The notes under the pieces are model-generated. The model was not told where the DNA came from. It saw only the letters and a list, made by a program, of their open reading frames with translations, and made no database searches. A stretch of 64,000 nucleotides of DNA from Maribacter polysiphoniae (GTDB lineage Bacteria > Bacteroidota > Bacteroidia > Flavobacteriales > Flavobacteriaceae). The position numbers and the translations under genes are program-made. The stretch is from contig NZ_QGGQ01000007.1 in assembly GCF_003148665.1 (NCBI RefSeq), forward strand, positions 62,001 to 126,000. The letters are read 5' to 3'. Positions 41,660 through 64,000 of the stretch are shown here, in pieces; the first letter of the stretch is position 1; every line of letters begins with the position of its first letter.

Positions 41660-41667
41660 TAATTTTG
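41660..41667 (+). promoter_or_regulatory. TAnnTTTG -7 box upstream of the cobalamin riboswitch
   Basis: TAATTTTG; predicted transcription start about 41674, right at the riboswitch 5' edge. Confidence 0.5.
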
Positions 41668-41675
41668 ACCCGATT

Positions 41676-41852
41676 TTCGGTTACATATTCTTTTAAAAGA
41701 ATGGTATTAAAAGGGAATCAGGTGTAAATCCTGAACAGTTCCCGCTGCTGTAAATCCCTTCCGGTTGTTCCGGAAAAAATCTTTTTGACAAACCACTGTC
41801 CTTTGGGATGGGAAGGGTTAAAAAGAGGGATGAGTCAGAAGACCTGCCGCAA
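41676..41852 (+). ncRNA. cobalamin (B12) riboswitch
   Basis: The conserved aptamer phrases are in order: AAAGGGAATCAGGTG, AATCCTGAACAGTTCCCGC, TGCTGTAA, CCACTGTCC, GGATGGGAAGG and the B12 box GAGTCAGAAGACCTGCC. Downstream bases to 41972 (including TCGGGAGTTATAGCTTTGGG) would be the expression platform. In Bacteroidota such elements switch off cobalamin uptake genes when adenosylcobalamin is plentiful; here the controlled gene is the lipoprotein at 41973. Confidence 0.95.
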
Positions 41853-41972
41853 TTCACATAGACAGAGCTTTCGGGAGTTATAGCTTTGGGTAGATTTTCT
41901 ATTCTGACCATATCCCCATTGTTTTGTTTTGTAAATAAGTTAATTCAAATTATTAACCTTAATACAATTCAA

Positions 41973-56436: not shown

Positions 56437-58059
56437 ATGAAAAAGACACTTTTTTTATCCGCTTTAACCCTTATTGGCATTTTCGTTATTGGGTGTAACA
56501 ATGATGACGACAATAGAACTACAGAACCAAAAAATGACAAGCCCGGGAATTTCACGGTGCAAGTCACTCAAATTACCGCTAATAGCGCAGTACTGACCTG
56601 GAATGTAGCCGTAGACCCCGACAAAGACGAAGTAACCTATACCGTATTTCTGGGAGACAACGAAGTGCAGGCAAATCTGGAGACCACCGAATTTCTTTTA
56701 GAAAACCTTACCGGCCAAACCGATTACAACGGTACGGTAACAGCTTCCGACGGTAATGGGAATACCACTGAGAATACATTTGATTTTACCACGGAAGAGG
56801 ATGAGGAAGAGCCTATCGATGGCGTCTCCATAGCCTGGGAAAAATCCTTCGGGGGTTCTAAAATTGACATGGCCAATTCCTTGCAACTAACGGTCGATGG
56901 CGGGTATATCATAGCGGGTACTTCCGAATCGGATGATGGTGACGTAGGAGGCAACAACGATGCGGAAAACTATTTGGGAGGGGATTTTTGGATCACCAAA
57001 CTGAGTAATTCAGGGGATTTGATGTGGGAAACCAACTTAGGGGGGTCTAGTGATGAGGCAGGGAATGACATACAACAAACCGCAGATGGTGGATATATCG
57101 TAGTAGGAATGACCGATTCCAATGATCAGGATATTAGTGGAGACACCTCCGCTGCCGATGTTTGGATCGTTAAACTGGATGGATCTGGAAATTTGATTTG
57201 GGAAACGAATTACGGTGGAAGTTCCAATGAGGAAGCCACCTCTGTAGCCCAAACCTTGGATGGCGGATATATTGTCGCTGGTTTTTCAGCCTCCTCGGAT
57301 GGCGATGTAGGCGGTAATAACGGAGGATTGGACTATTGGATACTAAAGCTTGATAACGACGGACTATTGGTGTGGGAAAGCCATCTTGGCGGAGCTGCCT
57401 TCGATATTGCAAAATCAGTTGGTCAAACTACCGATGGAGGATATATTGTGGCAGGATATTCCGAATCCATCGATGGAGATGTTGGCGGTAATTATGGGGA
57501 GAAAGATTATTGGGTCGTAAAGTTGGATGCCCTAGGCAATTTGGTTTGGGAAAAACATCTAGGAGGTTCACTTGAGGATTACGCTTATGACATTCATCAA
57601 ACCACGGATCAGGGGTATATCGTAGCGGGGTATTCCGAATCGTCGGATTTTGACGTAAGTGCCAATCACGGAAACAAGGATTACTGGATCGTAAAATTAG
57701 ATACTTCGGGAGAAATAACATGGGAAGCCAATCTTGGGAGCTCCTCTGTTGATGAAGCCCGTTCTATTCAACAAACGGCCGATCAAGGATACATTATTGC
57801 CGGTAGCGCCGGAACAACCGACTTTGATGTGAGCGGCCCCACGAATGGAGGGTTTCTCGATTATTGGATCGTAAAGCTAAATTCGTCCGGTGCATTGTCG
57901 TGGGAAATGAGTTTTGGAAGTCCAGAAAACGATTACGCAAATGCCGTTCAACAAACTACCGACGGTTATATAGTAGCAGGTTATGTTTCGGGTCTCGGAG
58001 GGGATGTCAGTGGCACAGGCAAAGGCCAGTGGGATTATTGGGTAGTAAAACTAGAGTGA
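56437..58059 (+). CDS. lipoprotein with FN3 domain and seven propeller-like repeats
   Basis: 540 aa. Lipobox FVIGC then NNDDDN. Fibronectin type III domain at about residues 35-125 (ITANSAVLTWNVAVDPD). Then seven repeats of about 55 residues each marked by W-x-x-x-[FL]GGS, DGGYI[IV]AG and YW[IV]VKLD. Seven repeats with that signature suggest a seven-bladed propeller. Last of the plus-strand secreted cluster. Start is the first ATG before the signal peptide. Confidence 0.82.
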   Translation: MKKTLFLSALTLIGIFVIGCNNDDDNRTTEPKNDKPGNFTVQVTQITANSAVLTWNVAVDPDKDEVTYTVFLGDNEVQANLETTEFLLENLTGQTDYNGTVTASDGNGNTTENTFDFTTEEDEEEPIDGVSIAWEKSFGGSKIDMANSLQLTVDGGYIIAGTSESDDGDVGGNNDAENYLGGDFWITKLSNSGDLMWETNLGGSSDEAGNDIQQTADGGYIVVGMTDSNDQDISGDTSAADVWIVKLDGSGNLIWETNYGGSSNEEATSVAQTLDGGYIVAGFSASSDGDVGGNNGGLDYWILKLDNDGLLVWESHLGGAAFDIAKSVGQTTDGGYIVAGYSESIDGDVGGNYGEKDYWVVKLDALGNLVWEKHLGGSLEDYAYDIHQTTDQGYIVAGYSESSDFDVSANHGNKDYWIVKLDTSGEITWEANLGSSSVDEARSIQQTADQGYIIAGSAGTTDFDVSGPTNGGFLDYWIVKLNSSGALSWEMSFGSPENDYANAVQQTTDGYIVAGYVSGLGGDVSGTGKGQWDYWVVKLE

Positions 58060-58166
58060 TTATGGCCCATCAGGATTGACTACCGTAAGTAAGACCAGAC
58101 ACAAATAAACCAAACGCCTAACAAAGAACAATCCGAACACTTTGGTTCACATATGTAGTGGCGATA

Positions 58167-59735
58167 TTATTCAAATTTCATCGCTTCAACGTTGAGGTTA
58201 TAATCTTTTCCCTTTAATGTTTCGAACTCATGGATCATTTCAGCAAGTTTCTTTGGATTGGAGGTGGCCAAATTATTTTGTTGCGCCACATCATCTTTTA
58301 AATTATACAGGTAGAACTCAGGAAAGCTCCCTACTTCAATACCTACTTCCTCCTCATAATTAACGCCTTTATACGGGGGGATCATTAACCAATCCCCACT
58401 TCGCAATGCGGTTCTTGATGTCGCTTCAATGATAAGGTTGTCCCTTCCTGTTTTGCTTTTCCCTAAAAATACATCCATTAAGTCTTGACTGTCAGTGGTA
58501 TTGTCCTTGGTACCGACCAAGTCCGCCAAAGAGGCCAACAGATCCATTTGACATACGATCGCATTGGATTCTGCCGGTTGTATCTTTCCTTTCCAATACG
58601 TGATGAGGGGTATTCTTGTGCCAGCTTCAAACAAGCTGTATTTTCCTCCCCTTAGGCCTCCATTGGGATCATGGTTTCCTAGTTTCTCTACGGCATCATC
58701 ATAATAACCATCATTGAGTACCGGCCCATTATCACTGGAGAAGATTACCAGTGTATTATCCAGGATCCCTTCTTCCTCCAGTGTTTTCATGAATTCACCT
58801 ATACACCAATCCGCTTCCAAAATAACATCCCCTCTGGGGCCCATTCCCGATTTTCCGACAAATCTTGGGTTTGGGGTTCGAGGTACATGTGGCTGATTCA
58901 TGGCATAGTACAGAAAGAAAGGCTTGTCTTTGTGCTCTTTGACATATGTTTGGGCTTTATCCAGGAAGGTATCGGCAATATCGATATCACTCCATTTGGC
59001 CGAATCACCACCTTTCATAAAACCAATTCGTGGAATCCCGTTGACAATACTATTGTTATGTCCATGATGCCATTTCATTTTTACCATCTCGGGATTTGTA
59101 ATTGCCGTGGGTTCACCTTTGAAATTATTCTTATAATCGACCGAAATGGGATCTTTGGGATCCAAACCGACAACATTCCCATTTTCAATATAGACGGTAG
59201 GAACCCTATCTTGGGTAGCCGCCAAAATATAGGATTCTTCAAATCCAACTTCATTGGGCCCCGGTGAGACCCTTTCGTTCCAGTTTATAATTCCTGAACC
59301 AAGGCCAAGATGCCATTTTCCGACAATGGCGGTTTGATAGCCTTGTTTTTTAAGCATTTTCGGCAAGGTTTGTTGTTCTGTGCTTATTAATAAGGGTGCT
59401 GTGCCAGGTAATATCTTGGCATCCTTATTTCGCCATGGATACATACCCGTAAGTAAGGCATATCTACTTGGCGTACATGTTGCTGAAGAGGCATAACCAT
59501 TGGTGAATTTAATCCCTTCTGTAGCCAAGGCATCAATATTTGGCGTTTGTAACCCAGTTCCTCCATAGGAACTGATATCCCCATAACCTAAATCATCCAA
59601 ATAAATGACTACGATGTTCGGGTTTTTTGATGGGGCATCAACTTCATTTGTTTTTTCAGTCGGCTTATCCTTGCAACTTAAACCAAGAAGTAAAATAGAT
59701 GCTAGTAACAATAAGGAATGTTTTGAATTTTTCAT
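58167..59735 (-). CDS. sulfatase (arylsulfatase-type, S1 family), lipoprotein
   Basis: 522 aa from ATG 59735 (MKNSKHSLLLL). Lipobox LGLSC with Cys21. Metal-binding DDLGYGD (Asp47, Asp48) and the formylglycine site SSATCTPSRYALLTG with Cys87 in C-T-P-S-R identify a Cys-type sulfatase needing a formylglycine-generating enzyme. It removes sulfate esters, possibly from algal or other sulfated glycans. Minus strand, 312 bases from the FecI gene. Upstream ATG alternatives lie before the signal peptide and are rejected. Confidence 0.92.
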   Translation of the reverse strand: MKNSKHSLLLLASILLLGLSCKDKPTEKTNEVDAPSKNPNIVVIYLDDLGYGDISSYGGTGLQTPNIDALATEGIKFTNGYASSATCTPSRYALLTGMYPWRNKDAKILPGTAPLLISTEQQTLPKMLKKQGYQTAIVGKWHLGLGSGIINWNERVSPGPNEVGFEESYILAATQDRVPTVYIENGNVVGLDPKDPISVDYKNNFKGEPTAITNPEMVKMKWHHGHNNSIVNGIPRIGFMKGGDSAKWSDIDIADTFLDKAQTYVKEHKDKPFFLYYAMNQPHVPRTPNPRFVGKSGMGPRGDVILEADWCIGEFMKTLEEEGILDNTLVIFSSDNGPVLNDGYYDDAVEKLGNHDPNGGLRGGKYSLFEAGTRIPLITYWKGKIQPAESNAIVCQMDLLASLADLVGTKDNTTDSQDLMDVFLGKSKTGRDNLIIEATSRTALRSGDWLMIPPYKGVNYEEEVGIEVGSFPEFYLYNLKDDVAQQNNLATSNPKKLAEMIHEFETLKGKDYNLNVEAMKFE

Positions 59736-60047
59736 ATGTTGGATTTGATATGATAAATTATAATGTATAATACAATGTAGAACTTCTGGTTTAACGCTAA
59801 TCGGATGAATATTTTCCCATCTCAAGAAAGAATGGGGATATATTATTTTAGAAGAAAACCCTCGTTTGATTACTAATGCTATCTGAGATCCAGAATACTT
59901 TATTGTTTTAAAAGCAACAAATGTATTTAAAGTTAAAGATCTATTCGTCTTTATTTCTCAAAACTTCCAATTGTTCGGTGTGATTCTGGGAGGCCTTCTG
60001 TAAAATTGTTTTTGTAGTAGGGAAGAACAAATAAACAATAACCAATG
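59736..60047. other. 312-base gap upstream of the sulfatase
   Basis: No gene. On the minus strand TACATTTG (59925 to 59918) matches the -7 consensus and could start the sulfatase message, with a leader of about 175 bases. Confidence 0.4.
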
Positions 60048-60605
60048 TTAATTCAACAATAGAAATAAAAGTAGACTATCGTCTTTAAAGGCTTCCCGTA
60101 TTTTGGTAAATGCAATCCTCATCTGGGATTCAACGGTTTTAATCGATATTTTCAATTCCAAAGCAATCTCTTTGTACTTTATGCCCTGTATCTTATTCAT
60201 GTGAATGATCTTTCTGCATTCGGGGGGTAGATTTTCAATTACGTACTTTATTTTCTGAATGCGTTTTTCTTGAGCTTCCGAATCTTCCTCAATTCTATCC
60301 CGTAAAGCACGTTCCCAAATTTCGGTCATTATTGTATCCTTCTTTTTTGAAGCATTGATAGTGTCGATAAATATATTGTGGGCAATGGCAAAGAGGTAAC
60401 CTTTGGGTGATTGTGTGTCATCCAATTTTTCTCGATTGATCCAGAGATTTATAAAAGTTTGCTGAACGATATCCTCCGATTGGGTTCTATTATGGCTATA
60501 TGTTGTTATATACGCTACAAGGCGGTTGTAGTACGCATGGAAAAGATATTTATAGGCAAGTCTATCCCCTTTTTTCAAAGCCTTGACTGCATTTATTTCA
60601 TCCAT
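60048..60605 (-). CDS. FecI-type ECF sigma factor
   Basis: 185 aa. Region 2 with SEDIVQQTFINLW and FAIAHNIFIDTIN, region 4 with MNKIQGIKYKEIALELKISI. This is the sigma half of a FecI/FecR regulatory switch; the partner FecR gene is divergent at 60767. In Bacteroidota the sigma, FecR and SusC genes usually share a strand, so the divergence is unusual but not rare. Confidence 0.9.
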   Translation of the reverse strand: MDEINAVKALKKGDRLAYKYLFHAYYNRLVAYITTYSHNRTQSEDIVQQTFINLWINREKLDDTQSPKGYLFAIAHNIFIDTINASKKKDTIMTEIWERALRDRIEEDSEAQEKRIQKIKYVIENLPPECRKIIHMNKIQGIKYKEIALELKISIKTVESQMRIAFTKIREAFKDDSLLLFLLLN

Positions 60606-60766
60606 TTAGTGGGCTTCGTTAATAGCGATTATAGTGTAATGATGGTAATGATAAAAAATATTTCAATTTTTTTTAAGGGTTTTTTAATGTTTTGTAGTAT
60701 AGCTTATGTATGTGTTATAAAGAGGTCTCTAAATTATAACATATATCGAAAAATTTAATCAAATTA

Positions 60767-61894
60767 ATGAAAAAATATATTAGTAAGCTACTAATGGATA
60801 CCATTTCCCAAGATGAGCTTGTCATCTTGAAGAAATGGTTGGAGAATCCCAAAAATCAATCGATTCTTGAGTCATATGTGAAAAATTATCACGATTTGAA
60901 TATGGCGATGCTAAAGGACAATGTGGATGAAGCCTATGAGAAAGTGATTGGACAAATTGAGCAGAGGGAAAGGCCGGTAAAAAAATTGATTCCAAATTGG
61001 ATCAGGTATTCAGCCGCGGTAGTTATCGGTATAGGACTTATGGTTCAATATTATTATTATTCTGAAAAATCCGATACGACTTTAGTACCCAAAGAGGATG
61101 AGATAACATTGGAGTTGGATAATGGGACGATACAGACAATACATACCGGACAGTCAAAAGTAGTTAAGAATGCCGAAGGGAATGTTGTAGGTAAACAAGA
61201 ACAGGACCAGATCGATTATTCCGAAGCAAATAATATCAAGGAATTGGTTTATAATACCTTGAGCCTGCCCAAAGGAAAAACGTTTCGGATAATGTTGTCA
61301 GATGGTACTGCGGTAAATATGAACGCTGGTAGTTCTTTACGGTACCCCGTAAATTTCCGATCAAATGAATCGCGACGGGTTTTTCTTACCGGTGAGGCTT
61401 ATTTTGATGTGGCCAAGGATAAGGAAAGGCCTTTCATTGTGAGTTCAGGTAATCTGGAAGTTGAGGTATTGGGTACTGAATTCAACGTTTCTTCCTATAG
61501 TGAGGATGCCCATATTGAGGTAGTACTTGTCGAGGGTGCGGTAAACCTTAATACAAAGGGGGAATTAGAGGAAAATCCCATTGAGCTTTCACCTGGGCAA
61601 CGGGGTTCTTATTCCCGTGATTCCAAAAACATACATATAGATACTGTAAATACGAATATGTACACTTCGTGGATGCAAGGTCATTTAGTGTTCCGTGAAT
61701 TGACTTTTGACCAAATCCTGACAAAATTGGAACGTCATTATAACATTGAGATTTTGAATACCAATACGGAATTGGGTAAAGTAGTATTCAATGCAAGTTT
61801 CAATGAAGTAAAAATTGAGGAGGTGTTAAGCTTTTTCAATGATACCCATGAAATTGAATATGAAATAAAAAATAATACAGTAATTATCAAATAA
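60767..61894 (+). CDS. FecR-family anti-sigma factor
   Basis: 375 aa. N-terminal cytoplasmic segment (about residues 1-80) that holds the sigma factor, membrane helix SAAVVIGIGLMVQYYYY at about 83-102, FecR domain with KGKTFRIMLSDGTAVNMNAG and RRVFLTGEAYFDVAKD, and C-terminal DUF4974 (FDQILTKLERHYNIEI). Receives the signal from the STN domain of the SusC receptor downstream and releases the FecI factor. Starts at the ATG at 60767. Confidence 0.93.
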   Translation: MKKYISKLLMDTISQDELVILKKWLENPKNQSILESYVKNYHDLNMAMLKDNVDEAYEKVIGQIEQRERPVKKLIPNWIRYSAAVVIGIGLMVQYYYYSEKSDTTLVPKEDEITLELDNGTIQTIHTGQSKVVKNAEGNVVGKQEQDQIDYSEANNIKELVYNTLSLPKGKTFRIMLSDGTAVNMNAGSSLRYPVNFRSNESRRVFLTGEAYFDVAKDKERPFIVSSGNLEVEVLGTEFNVSSYSEDAHIEVVLVEGAVNLNTKGELEENPIELSPGQRGSYSRDSKNIHIDTVNTNMYTSWMQGHLVFRELTFDQILTKLERHYNIEILNTNTELGKVVFNASFNEVKIEEVLSFFNDTHEIEYEIKNNTVIIK

Positions 61895-61971
61895 AGGAAG
61901 TAGAACCCTAAAAAACAGAAAACAAATATGAAATAGTGAAATGAATACAACTGTCGACACTTTGTTTTTAA

Positions 61972-62045
61972 TAAAAAAAACCGGAAAATGTTCGAGCATT
62001 TCCCGGTCGTAAAAAGTGATCGCATTTTTTGCAAACCACAATAAA
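61972..62045 (-). ncRNA. candidate antisense RNA upstream of susC (DonS-like)
   Basis: A hairpin at 61980-62007 (on the minus strand ACCGGGAAATG / CATTTTCCGGT, loop CTCGAA) is followed on the minus strand by eight T, making a terminator for leftward transcription. On that strand the sixth stem position is a G-U pair; on the plus strand it is an A-C mismatch, and no T run follows there. A minus-strand TATTTTTG box (62058 to 62051) predicts a start near 62044, giving about 73 nt antisense to the susC leader. This is the arrangement described for DonS-type RNAs that repress SusC genes in Bacteroides. Inferred, not demonstrated. Confidence 0.5.
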
Positions 62046-62057
62046 ACAATCAAAAAT

Positions 62058-64000
62058 ATGAAAAAACCACAGAACCTATGGAGGTTGAACAAGCCTTTGT
62101 TGAAATTTGACTTAAAAATGAAACTAACTACCTTGTTATTGATTACGGCCTTGTTTGGGTTACATGCCAATAACGGTTATGCTCAAAAGACCAAGGTCAC
62201 ATTGAGCGTTGAGAATTCGAGTGTTCGAAATATTATTGATAATATTGAATCCACTACCGACTTTCGATTTATTTATAAAATCAAGCAAGTTGATTTAAGT
62301 CGTAGGGTATCACTGGATTTGCATGAGGTAAATATTGAAAAAGTACTCAAAAGTTTGTTCAGCACTACGAATACGGTATATAAAATCAGGGGTACCCAAA
62401 TCATTTTAAAACAAGGGGTAAGGACACTCAAGAAGGAGACTGAAAAAGAAGAAGGGGAGGTTCTTAACACACCAGAGCAAGACAACATTGTAACTGGTAA
62501 TATTGTTGATGAGGAAGGCACCCCTTTACCTGGTGCAAGTATTTTGGAAAAAGGAACCACCAATGGGACACAGTCCGATTTTGATGGTAATTATTCAATT
62601 TCCCTAAGTAATCTGAACACAACATTGGTTGTTTCTTATATTGGTTTTGCAACCCAACAGGTGGCGATCAATGGTCGTACCATGATCAATATCAAAATGG
62701 AAGTGGATGCTGCCGGTTTGGATGAAGTTGTCGTTGTAGGTTACGGAAGTGTGAAAAAGAGTGATTTGACAGGTTCTGTTTCTTCCGTTAATTCAGAGGA
62801 TTTAGTTGCTTTTCCTGTTGTTGATGCCACCCAGGCCTTACAGGGTAGGGCAGCCGGGGTTACGGTGCAGTCTACCAATGGTGCACCTGGATCAGAGTAC
62901 AGTATCCAAATCCGTGGTAATACTTCTATTAATGCCGGAAATGATCCTTTAATTGTTGTTGATGGATTTATTGGAGGAACAATGCCTCCTTCTGAGGATA
63001 TTAAGTCCATGGAGATTCTTAAGGATGCTTCTTCCACAGCGATTTATGGAGCTAGAGGGGCTAATGGGGTTGTACTCATAACCACAAAGAGGGGTACTGA
63101 AGGAAAACCACAATTTAGTTTTTCATCATCATATTCTTCCCAGAAGGAGATAAATACGCTTGACCTACTTGATGCGGATCAATTTACAGGCTATATTCAA
63201 GAGCTTTATCCTGATTTTGTTCCGGAATTGACGGGAGCAGGAACAGACTGGCAAGATAAAATATTTAGACCTGGTGGGACACAGAATTACCAGCTTTCAG
63301 TTGCTGGTGGGACAGATAAATTGAATTATTATCTATCTGGGGCAATCTATGATCAGAAAGGTGTTATCAAGGATTCGGATTATAAAAGATATTCCCTTAC
63401 TTCCAATTTGGATTTAAAGGTGTCAGAGTCTGTGAATATTGGAACAAGTTTATTTGCCCGTAGAACCAATCGTAATGGGGTAAGAACCCAAGAAGGCGGA
63501 GATGCTTCCCAAACTGGGGTTGTATCAGGAGCTTATAAATTTTCACCTACCCAAGGGGTTAAAGATGAAAATGGCGATAATTCATTAAGTGTTGTTGGTT
63601 ATCCTATCGATAACCCTTATGCTATGGCAACCGAATACCAAAATGAAGTTGAACAAGATTTATTTCAAGGCAATGTTTATGCGGAAATCGCTCTTGCCGA
63701 AGGTTTGAAGTTTAAGTCTACATTAGGTGTTAAGGTAAGTGGTTCCAGAACGGGTCAGTACTACCCAACAACCTTAGAGCGTGGTAGTAGTACAGGGGGA
63801 GAGGCTACGCTTACTAAAGTTAAGTATACGAGTTTGATCAATGAGAATTACTTGAATTATTCCAAAATATTTGGTGATATTCATGATGTATCATTGATGG
63901 CCGGGTATTCTTACCAAAAAGATAGGACAGAGTATTCAACAACGATTGCTTCCGGCTTTATTTCCGATTCTTTTTCATATTGGAACTTAGGAGCGGGTAC
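62058..64000 (+). CDS. SusC/RagA-type TonB-linked outer membrane protein, partial
   Basis: At least 647 aa; the gene runs off the window. Long-type signal peptide (MKKPQNLWRLNKP...LKMKLTTLLLITALFGL). STN domain at about residues 45-115 (KVTLSVENSSVRNIIDNIES) indicates signalling to FecR. Carboxypeptidase-like domain at about 145-215, TonB box LDEVVVVGYG, then the plug (GRAAGVTVQS and IVVDGFIGG) and the start of the barrel. Imports a large glycan or peptide, probably with a SusD partner beyond the window. Confidence 0.95.
   Translation, partial: MKKPQNLWRLNKPLLKFDLKMKLTTLLLITALFGLHANNGYAQKTKVTLSVENSSVRNIIDNIESTTDFRFIYKIKQVDLSRRVSLDLHEVNIEKVLKSLFSTTNTVYKIRGTQIILKQGVRTLKKETEKEEGEVLNTPEQDNIVTGNIVDEEGTPLPGASILEKGTTNGTQSDFDGNYSISLSNLNTTLVVSYIGFATQQVAINGRTMINIKMEVDAAGLDEVVVVGYGSVKKSDLTGSVSSVNSEDLVAFPVVDATQALQGRAAGVTVQSTNGAPGSEYSIQIRGNTSINAGNDPLIVVDGFIGGTMPPSEDIKSMEILKDASSTAIYGARGANGVVLITTKRGTEGKPQFSFSSSYSSQKEINTLDLLDADQFTGYIQELYPDFVPELTGAGTDWQDKIFRPGGTQNYQLSVAGGTDKLNYYLSGAIYDQKGVIKDSDYKRYSLTSNLDLKVSESVNIGTSLFARRTNRNGVRTQEGGDASQTGVVSGAYKFSPTQGVKDENGDNSLSVVGYPIDNPYAMATEYQNEVEQDLFQGNVYAEIALAEGLKFKSTLGVKVSGSRTGQYYPTTLERGSSTGGEATLTKVKYTSLINENYLNYSKIFGDIHDVSLMAGYSYQKDRTEYSTTIASGFISDSFSYWNLGAG

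Follow-up and report, generated by a model that had tools for sequence, protein, structure and literature searches.

A predicted cis-antisense RNA with two hairpins over the susC leader of a fecI–fecR locus in Maribacter polysiphoniae, and its counterparts in other Bacteroidota

SusC-type transporters controlled by FecI/FecR are a main nutrient-choice route in Bacteroidota, and the known systems closest to the element analyzed here include short RNAs of Bacteroides. DonS is reported to belong to a set of antisense RNAs, 78–128 nt long, that are divergent to susC homologues and repress PULs (PMC7366714); its mechanism is described as unknown in the account of PMC11697453. For B. thetaiotaomicron, 32 PUL-associated antisense RNAs are reported, and their correlation with the PULs is positive as well as negative (PMC10994844). 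The FopS and GibS sRNAs of the same species form a trans-acting family of 14 paralogues; FopS RNAs are reported to act in trans at the start regions of susC mRNAs, and FopS-10 binds there (PMC11697453). Antisense transcription in a flavobacterium, as proposed here, is documented for F. psychrophilum with 287 antisense regions, a list offered as a starting point for similar studies with citation of the DonS work; it is ascribed mostly to imperfect termination and noncanonical starts, and the section concerned names none at susC (PMC9723704). A literature search covering titles and abstract openings found no reports of such RNAs at susC outside Bacteroides, which is a weak negative. The element analyzed here resembles DonS and the PUL antisense RNAs of B. 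thetaiotaomicron in being short and lying antisense to a susC homologue at its 5′ end, but it occurs in Flavobacteriaceae and other orders, is tied to fecR, and has a two-hairpin fold deduced by comparison. Like FopS, it would act at the start region of a susC mRNA, but as a cis antisense RNA. To the DonS-like RNAs known in Bacteroides, the present analysis adds the same layout in several orders.

The window, i.e., the whole 64,000-nt stretch of DNA that was analyzed, is part of contig C7 of a 5.13-Mb genome. A gene for a fecI-type ECF sigma factor (60048–60605, minus strand; Pfam Sigma70_r2, Sigma70_ECF, and Sigma70_r4_2) is divergent from the fecR anti-sigma gene (60767–61894, plus strand; FecR and FecR_C), an arrangement that the first-pass annotation did not mention. 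The next ORF on the plus strand encodes a susC-type TonB-dependent transporter with an STN domain (ATG at 62058, on to 64000; STN, CarbopepD_reg_2, Plug, and barrel); it continues beyond the window end and is followed by a SusD gene (Pfam SusD_RagB, L384). The fecR–susC gap spans 61895–62057; read on the plus strand, it is the presumed leader of susC, to which the predicted RNA is complementary. Because fecR and susC both point rightward, a leftward terminator between them has no protein-gene explanation. Downstream of susD (L384 6537–17502) are genes for an Nramp-like transporter, a protein without Pfam match, a DHDPS-like protein, a GNAT enzyme, a GSDH-cytochrome protein, a GH109-like oxidoreductase, an FAD oxidoreductase, and an M20 peptidase; this gene set is not that of a typical polysaccharide locus. 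Elsewhere in the window, a cobalamin riboswitch aptamer is located at 41661–41865 (plus strand, 95.4 bits).

The first-pass annotation had placed in this gap a leftward terminator with a T-run on the minus strand only, and the analysis bears this out. The terminator hairpin (SL2, 61979–62008, minus strand) has 12 pairs, two of them G-U, and shows covariation in related loci. Its minus-strand letters from 62008 to 61979 are GACCGGGAAATG CTCGAA CATTTTCCGGTT, with CTCGAA as the loop, followed by TTTTTTATTA; the run of six T is at 61978–61973 and appears as an A-run on the plus strand. Among the eight terminator-like sites in 58000–64000 (5.0 ± 2.3 in shuffles), SL2 has the most pairs. A second hairpin, SL1 (GTGGTTTGC..GCGATCAC, 62016–62039, minus strand), which the annotation did not mention, is partly G-U paired on the minus strand only. 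The minus-strand −7 promoter box that had been proposed to overlap the susC ATG was found as TATTTTTG at 62051–62058, where it shares the A of the ATG and fits the consensus TAHHTTTG. In F. johnsoniae, the −7 element is reported as TAHHTTTG with 4–5 nt to the start (PMC6847099). The position of the box and this spacing predict a start at about 62045–62047 and an RNA of about 75 nt (61973–62046, minus strand), at the upper end of the 70–75 nt suggested before. A sigma-70 scan is unsuited to this phylum and was disregarded for promoters. The predicted RNA is exactly complementary to positions of about −12 through −85 of susC and has a two-hairpin fold. In the nearest ortholog (95%), the hairpins, the A-run, and the box are all kept. 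An alternative plus-strand hairpin, GUAAAAAGUG..CAUUUUUUGC, can be drawn at 62009–62032.

The folding energy of SL2 as RNA is −15.5 kcal/mol for the minus strand and −12.3 kcal/mol for the plus strand. The 76-nt minus-strand stretch folds at −23.5 (z = −4.24) and the plus-strand stretch at −20.7 (z = −4.82), the latter with a second hairpin differing from that of the minus strand. Both strands thus fold well, and the strand is not decided by single-sequence energy. The good plus-strand fold would suit a structure of the sense susC leader (an attenuator, a stabilizer, or a protein-binding hairpin), of which the minus-strand terminator would be the mirror image. The comparison of related loci, which bears directly on the strand, makes this explanation highly improbable, as described below.

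Examination of the other fecR–susC gaps of the genome, a check that the first-pass annotation had proposed, found the same layout at four of the six FecR (PF04773) genes (the window locus, C10, C7:167 kb, and C2:578 kb). As for the two exceptions, the hairpin in the C3 gap is not followed by a T-run, and at the other locus a short fecR runs into the transporter gene; such short FecR genes leave no room for the element. It is missing in the C3 gap and also in the 9–11 nt gaps of F. johnsoniae CI04 and F. cheongpyeongense. For a wider comparison, 143 FecR loci were taken from this genome, its relatives, and the class, and 20 were excluded (no next ORF, or a gap <20 or >320). A leftward hairpin with T-run (−6 kcal/mol or better) was present in 108 of the 123 usable gaps between fecR and the next ORF and a rightward one in 23. 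The corresponding figures were 92 and 15 of 102 in Flavobacteriaceae, and 16 and 8 of 21 in other families. The stem lies at a median distance of 48 nt from the ATG in the family (IQR 44–52 nt), and over a set of 123 loci with a stem the RNA, with its ends predicted, has a median length of 78 (10–90% range, 70–93).

Stems were also searched in a strand-neutral manner, with G·T and A·C treated alike, and were found in 87 of the 102 family gaps and in 15 gaps of other families. The first-pass annotation had pointed out a G-U pair on the minus strand that is an A-C mismatch on the plus strand. In the 87 family stems, positions that pair as G-U on just one strand number 118 for the minus strand and 10 for the plus strand. 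The control counts were 9 minus-only and 11 plus-only in stems before other transporters, and 32 and 14 in shuffled gaps; in the 15 stems of other families, the bias is weak (7 versus 4). At least five A within the 8 nt before the stem were counted in 68 of the 87 family loci, whereas at least five T within the 8 nt after it occurred in none. The G-U and T-run asymmetry indicates that it is the antisense strand on which the family maintains these structures. A leader hairpin on the sense strand would have its G-U pairs broken as A·C and would have no T-run behind it; a sense-strand attenuator is therefore disfavored. On comparison of the gap sequences, the element is a conserved family rather than a chance hairpin.

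The second hairpin shows the same tendency. With all loci pooled, its stem was found in 120 of 124 loci versus 64–70 in three shuffles, with 167 G-U positions on the minus strand only and 17 on the plus strand only (106 and 47 in the pooled shuffles). This result bears on transcriptional interference, in which the promoter–terminator pair would be the conserved unit and the RNA product irrelevant: a polymerase bound at the susC start, or initiating there, would hinder the sense polymerase, and the terminator would shield fecR from antisense read-through. The location of the promoter box directly on the susC start and of the terminator before fecR agrees with such a unit, but a second hairpin kept on the minus strand is needless for interference. 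We regard polymerase interference as the main rival of an acting RNA, unlikely as the sole explanation, and it may act alongside the RNA.

The hand-picked alignments (A2, 79/98; A3, 75/130; A4, 27 with a GTGRTT-like 5′ part; A6, 23/24) corroborate the fold. RNAalifold on 79 aligned minus-strand sequences gave a terminator stem of 11 pairs, all of which have changed on both sides. The members were selected for the stem, so that the pairing percentages, 96.7% of cells in 75 sequences over several orders and 96.5% for both hairpins in 27 Flavobacteriaceae, are partly circular, whereas the strand comparison is not. In the 75 sequences, both-side changes amounted to 181 cells versus 40 in shuffles. 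For SL1, both-side changes are limited to two of the eight pairs; the other six changed on one side, mostly through G-U exchanges, which on the plus strand would leave the bases unpaired. An alignment of related loci, which had also been proposed as a check, thus yields compensatory changes with G-U kept on the minus strand and favors the antisense strand. We also noticed a second subfamily, in which the terminator hairpin is longer and contains inner loops, the 5′ part is rich in AT (TTAGTTAAAnATTTAATTAATT), and no SL1 is evident; it includes L057, L060, L064, L069, L090, L091, L098, L101, L147, L156, L170, and others.

The predicted promoter box leaves a trace at the susC start. In the 92 family loci with a terminator, the start reads CAAAnnTATG in 48 and (C/T)AAAnnTATG (YAAAnnTATG) in 72, whereas among 46 transporters of the own genome that are not behind fecR the counts are 0 and 1. 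These controls were obtained by fetching 50 of the 62 Plug loci and removing four behind FecR. The same rule, the first ATG of the frame, defined the starts in family and control, and some are surely wrong (L149, L154, L112, and L100). The box accompanies the stem in 26 of 31 loci of Flavobacteria and 23 of 30 of other orders; where no stem was called, it is found in 14 of 41 loci, and in some of these loci the rule overlooked a hairpin. Positions −7, −6, −5, −4, and −1 are conserved, and −3 and −2 are free. C occurs at the two free positions in 1 and 5 of 101 boxes, as compared with 5 and 8 of 46 controls; this avoidance of C corresponds to the HH of TAHHTTTG seen from the other strand. The P values computed in this comparison take no account of how closely the loci are related.

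The same pattern could in principle be a translation-initiation signal, with the terminator stopping antisense read-through from elsewhere. An A at −6 is reported to be favorable to translation in F. johnsoniae, in agreement with such a signal. The published data on this species likewise favor A at −3, with U at −3 rarer among well-translated genes, and the family has A in 54% and T in 38% at this position. Against a translation signal, it is the T at −1 and the C/T at −7 that are conserved and not an A at −3, and a single one of the 46 other transporters carries the pattern; we consider this reading improbable and take the box as a promoter element. The −33 TTTG showed no clear enrichment: CAAA at +12 to +24 was found in 19 of 123 loci versus 4 of 46 controls, and at +18 to +30 in 10 of 123 versus 3 of 46. 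The −33 element is described as weak in F. johnsoniae as well (PMC6847099). An excess of CAAA at +42 to +54 (23 of 123 versus 2 of 46) has a spacing unfit for a −33 element. The box over the start codon suggests that a start context in this phylum may be shaped by an antisense promoter and not by translation.

Two covariance models were used to follow the element. A search of the whole own genome with R1, the terminator model, gave three matches below 1e−5, all at fecR–susC gaps on the opposite strand; these are members of its training alignment A3 and match by construction, so that the telling point is the scarcity of other matches. Beyond them, a palindromic site scored E 0.002 and 0.008 on its two strands, and the fourth fecR–susC gap, which is outside the training set, scored E 0.0185. 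Apart from the palindromic site, R1 matches at E < 0.02 in the genome are thus confined to fecR–susC gaps. Among the matches listed for eight genomes, some of which contain training members, 29 of 30 loci are flanked by FecR and SusC genes encoded on the opposite strand. R2, the two-hairpin model, matched in at least 19 of 120 genomes of the family. The element is not universal: under strict filters, the other 101 genomes, taken irrespective of whether they have a suitable fecR–susC gap, gave no match at E ≤ 0.001. In 11 genomes that contributed no training sequence, R2 gave at least 25 matches. Of the 16 examined, 15 lie between FecR and SusC and the 16th adjoins SusC only; the box is present in 13 within the stretch inspected. 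None of the loci analyzed before is nearly identical to any of these 16, the longest alignments showing 64–75% identity. Up to 150 (R1) or 39 (R2) candidates per genome were scored, so that weak members may be missed and the counts are lower bounds.

Carriers were surveyed by eye in 79 of 80 named loci, L234 being cut off by its contig end; a next ORF is present in 76. The element was seen in Flavobacterium, Arenibacter, Cerina, and Polaribacter, which we take to be Flavobacteriia, and in five further orders: Butyricimonas (Bacteroidales), Marinifilum (Marinilabiliales), Pedobacter (Sphingobacteriales), Dyadobacter (Cytophagales), and Lacibacter (Chitinophagales). In a MAG recorded as Bacteroides sp. 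(G352), 10 of the 12 R1 matches below 1e−3 among those listed adjoin FecR on the other strand, and inspection by eye found the element in one of the four gaps displayed (L300). FecR_C matches number 124 in the Butyricimonas genome, 88 in that of Pedobacter, and 69 in the Bacteroides MAG; R1 matches with E ≤ 1 among the candidates scored number at least 39, 27, and 30, respectively.

The likeness to DonS that the first-pass annotation had drawn is sustained in the sense that the element would work like DonS: the place, the orientation, and the promoter type are the same, the predicted size is nearly equal, and the element stands beside FecR in the Bacteroides sp. record. It is antisense to the susC 5′ region, on the minus strand between fecR and the STN-type susC with the box on the ATG, and the TAHHTTTG box suggests a primary-sigma promoter of its own. 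No Rfam family reaches its cutoff at the element (best score, 23.5 bits versus a cutoff of 79), and the matches with E of up to 1 in 16 related loci likewise all fall short of their cutoffs; no DonS family was matched. Identity with a known Rfam family was therefore rejected; this includes Flavo-1, a flavobacterial RNA motif in Rfam.

A trans-acting small RNA with several transporter mRNAs as targets, like FopS of B. thetaiotaomicron, would be encoded away from its targets, whereas the matches stay beside susC in all but one of the loci listed and, in 15 of the 16 R2 loci, beside FecR too. The stem sequence is similar among paralogues and across species, so that cross-pairing is conceivable, and the binding of FopS-10 to the start region of susC mRNAs provides a precedent. 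Paralogues of one genome, by contrast, have no loop in common (0 of 111 pairs with identical loops, although the permutation P is 0.14 and the loop set is noisy). Taken together, a trans-acting RNA has little probability here, and the idea that the loops serve as addresses of individual copies is only suggestive.

We conclude that the stretch probably encodes a cis-antisense RNA that brakes susC, of the DonS kind but here structured and widespread. The strand, fold, promoter box, and position of the element are supported by the sequence comparisons, and its synthesis, pairing with susC mRNA, and repression, including the step affected, are inferred from the DonS analogy. Here, we propose the following mechanism. 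A housekeeping-type promoter, with its −7 box on the susC start codon, would have the RNA read leftward to end at its own terminator behind fecR. While FecI/FecR is silent, this promoter would keep making antisense RNA, which would pair with any residual or spurious susC mRNA over the stretch from the upstream initiation region back to the hairpin. The paired region would include −12 and −13, where adenines are reported to aid initiation in F. johnsoniae. Pairing would keep ribosomes off the susC mRNA, and the duplex could be open to cleavage, marking the mRNA for decay. Once FecI is released, sense transcription would outrun the antisense RNA and pass through its promoter. The net effect may be a brake in cis, of the kind reported for DonS in Bacteroides fragilis, with a tighter OFF state and a faster switch-off.

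More tentatively, and with somewhat less than even confidence, the element might belong to an ancient family of structured antisense RNAs across the orders of Bacteroidota, built into most FecI/FecR-controlled loci of STN transporters, where every transporter would have its own RNA as a permanent brake. Within a genome, the copies would share their stems and differ in their loops, and each RNA would thereby address its own transporter; DonS would be one branch. The fold is now available for mutation and the models R1 and R2 for annotation, and the element has been placed, by sequence, in F. johnsoniae (strain CI04), a species for which reporter genetics and RNA-seq exist.

The susC sense promoter was sought upstream of the hairpin, and a different motif emerged instead. 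Many related gaps contain (G)CCTATG-x-stop at this place, which here reads ATGAAATAG (61928–61936). ATG-codon-stop was found in 40 of 78 gaps, as compared with 5.7 in shuffles, and the stop can be TAA, TGA, or TAG. Of 42 occurrences of CCTATG, 31 have a stop at codon 2 or 3 behind them, versus 3 of 42 in the coding background. In some short-gap loci, the letters of the motif lie inside fecR in the frame TAT GAA ATA AAA (YEIK); a two-codon open frame is accordingly not claimed. The motif may be a tiny open frame, a sense promoter, or a relic of the fecR end.
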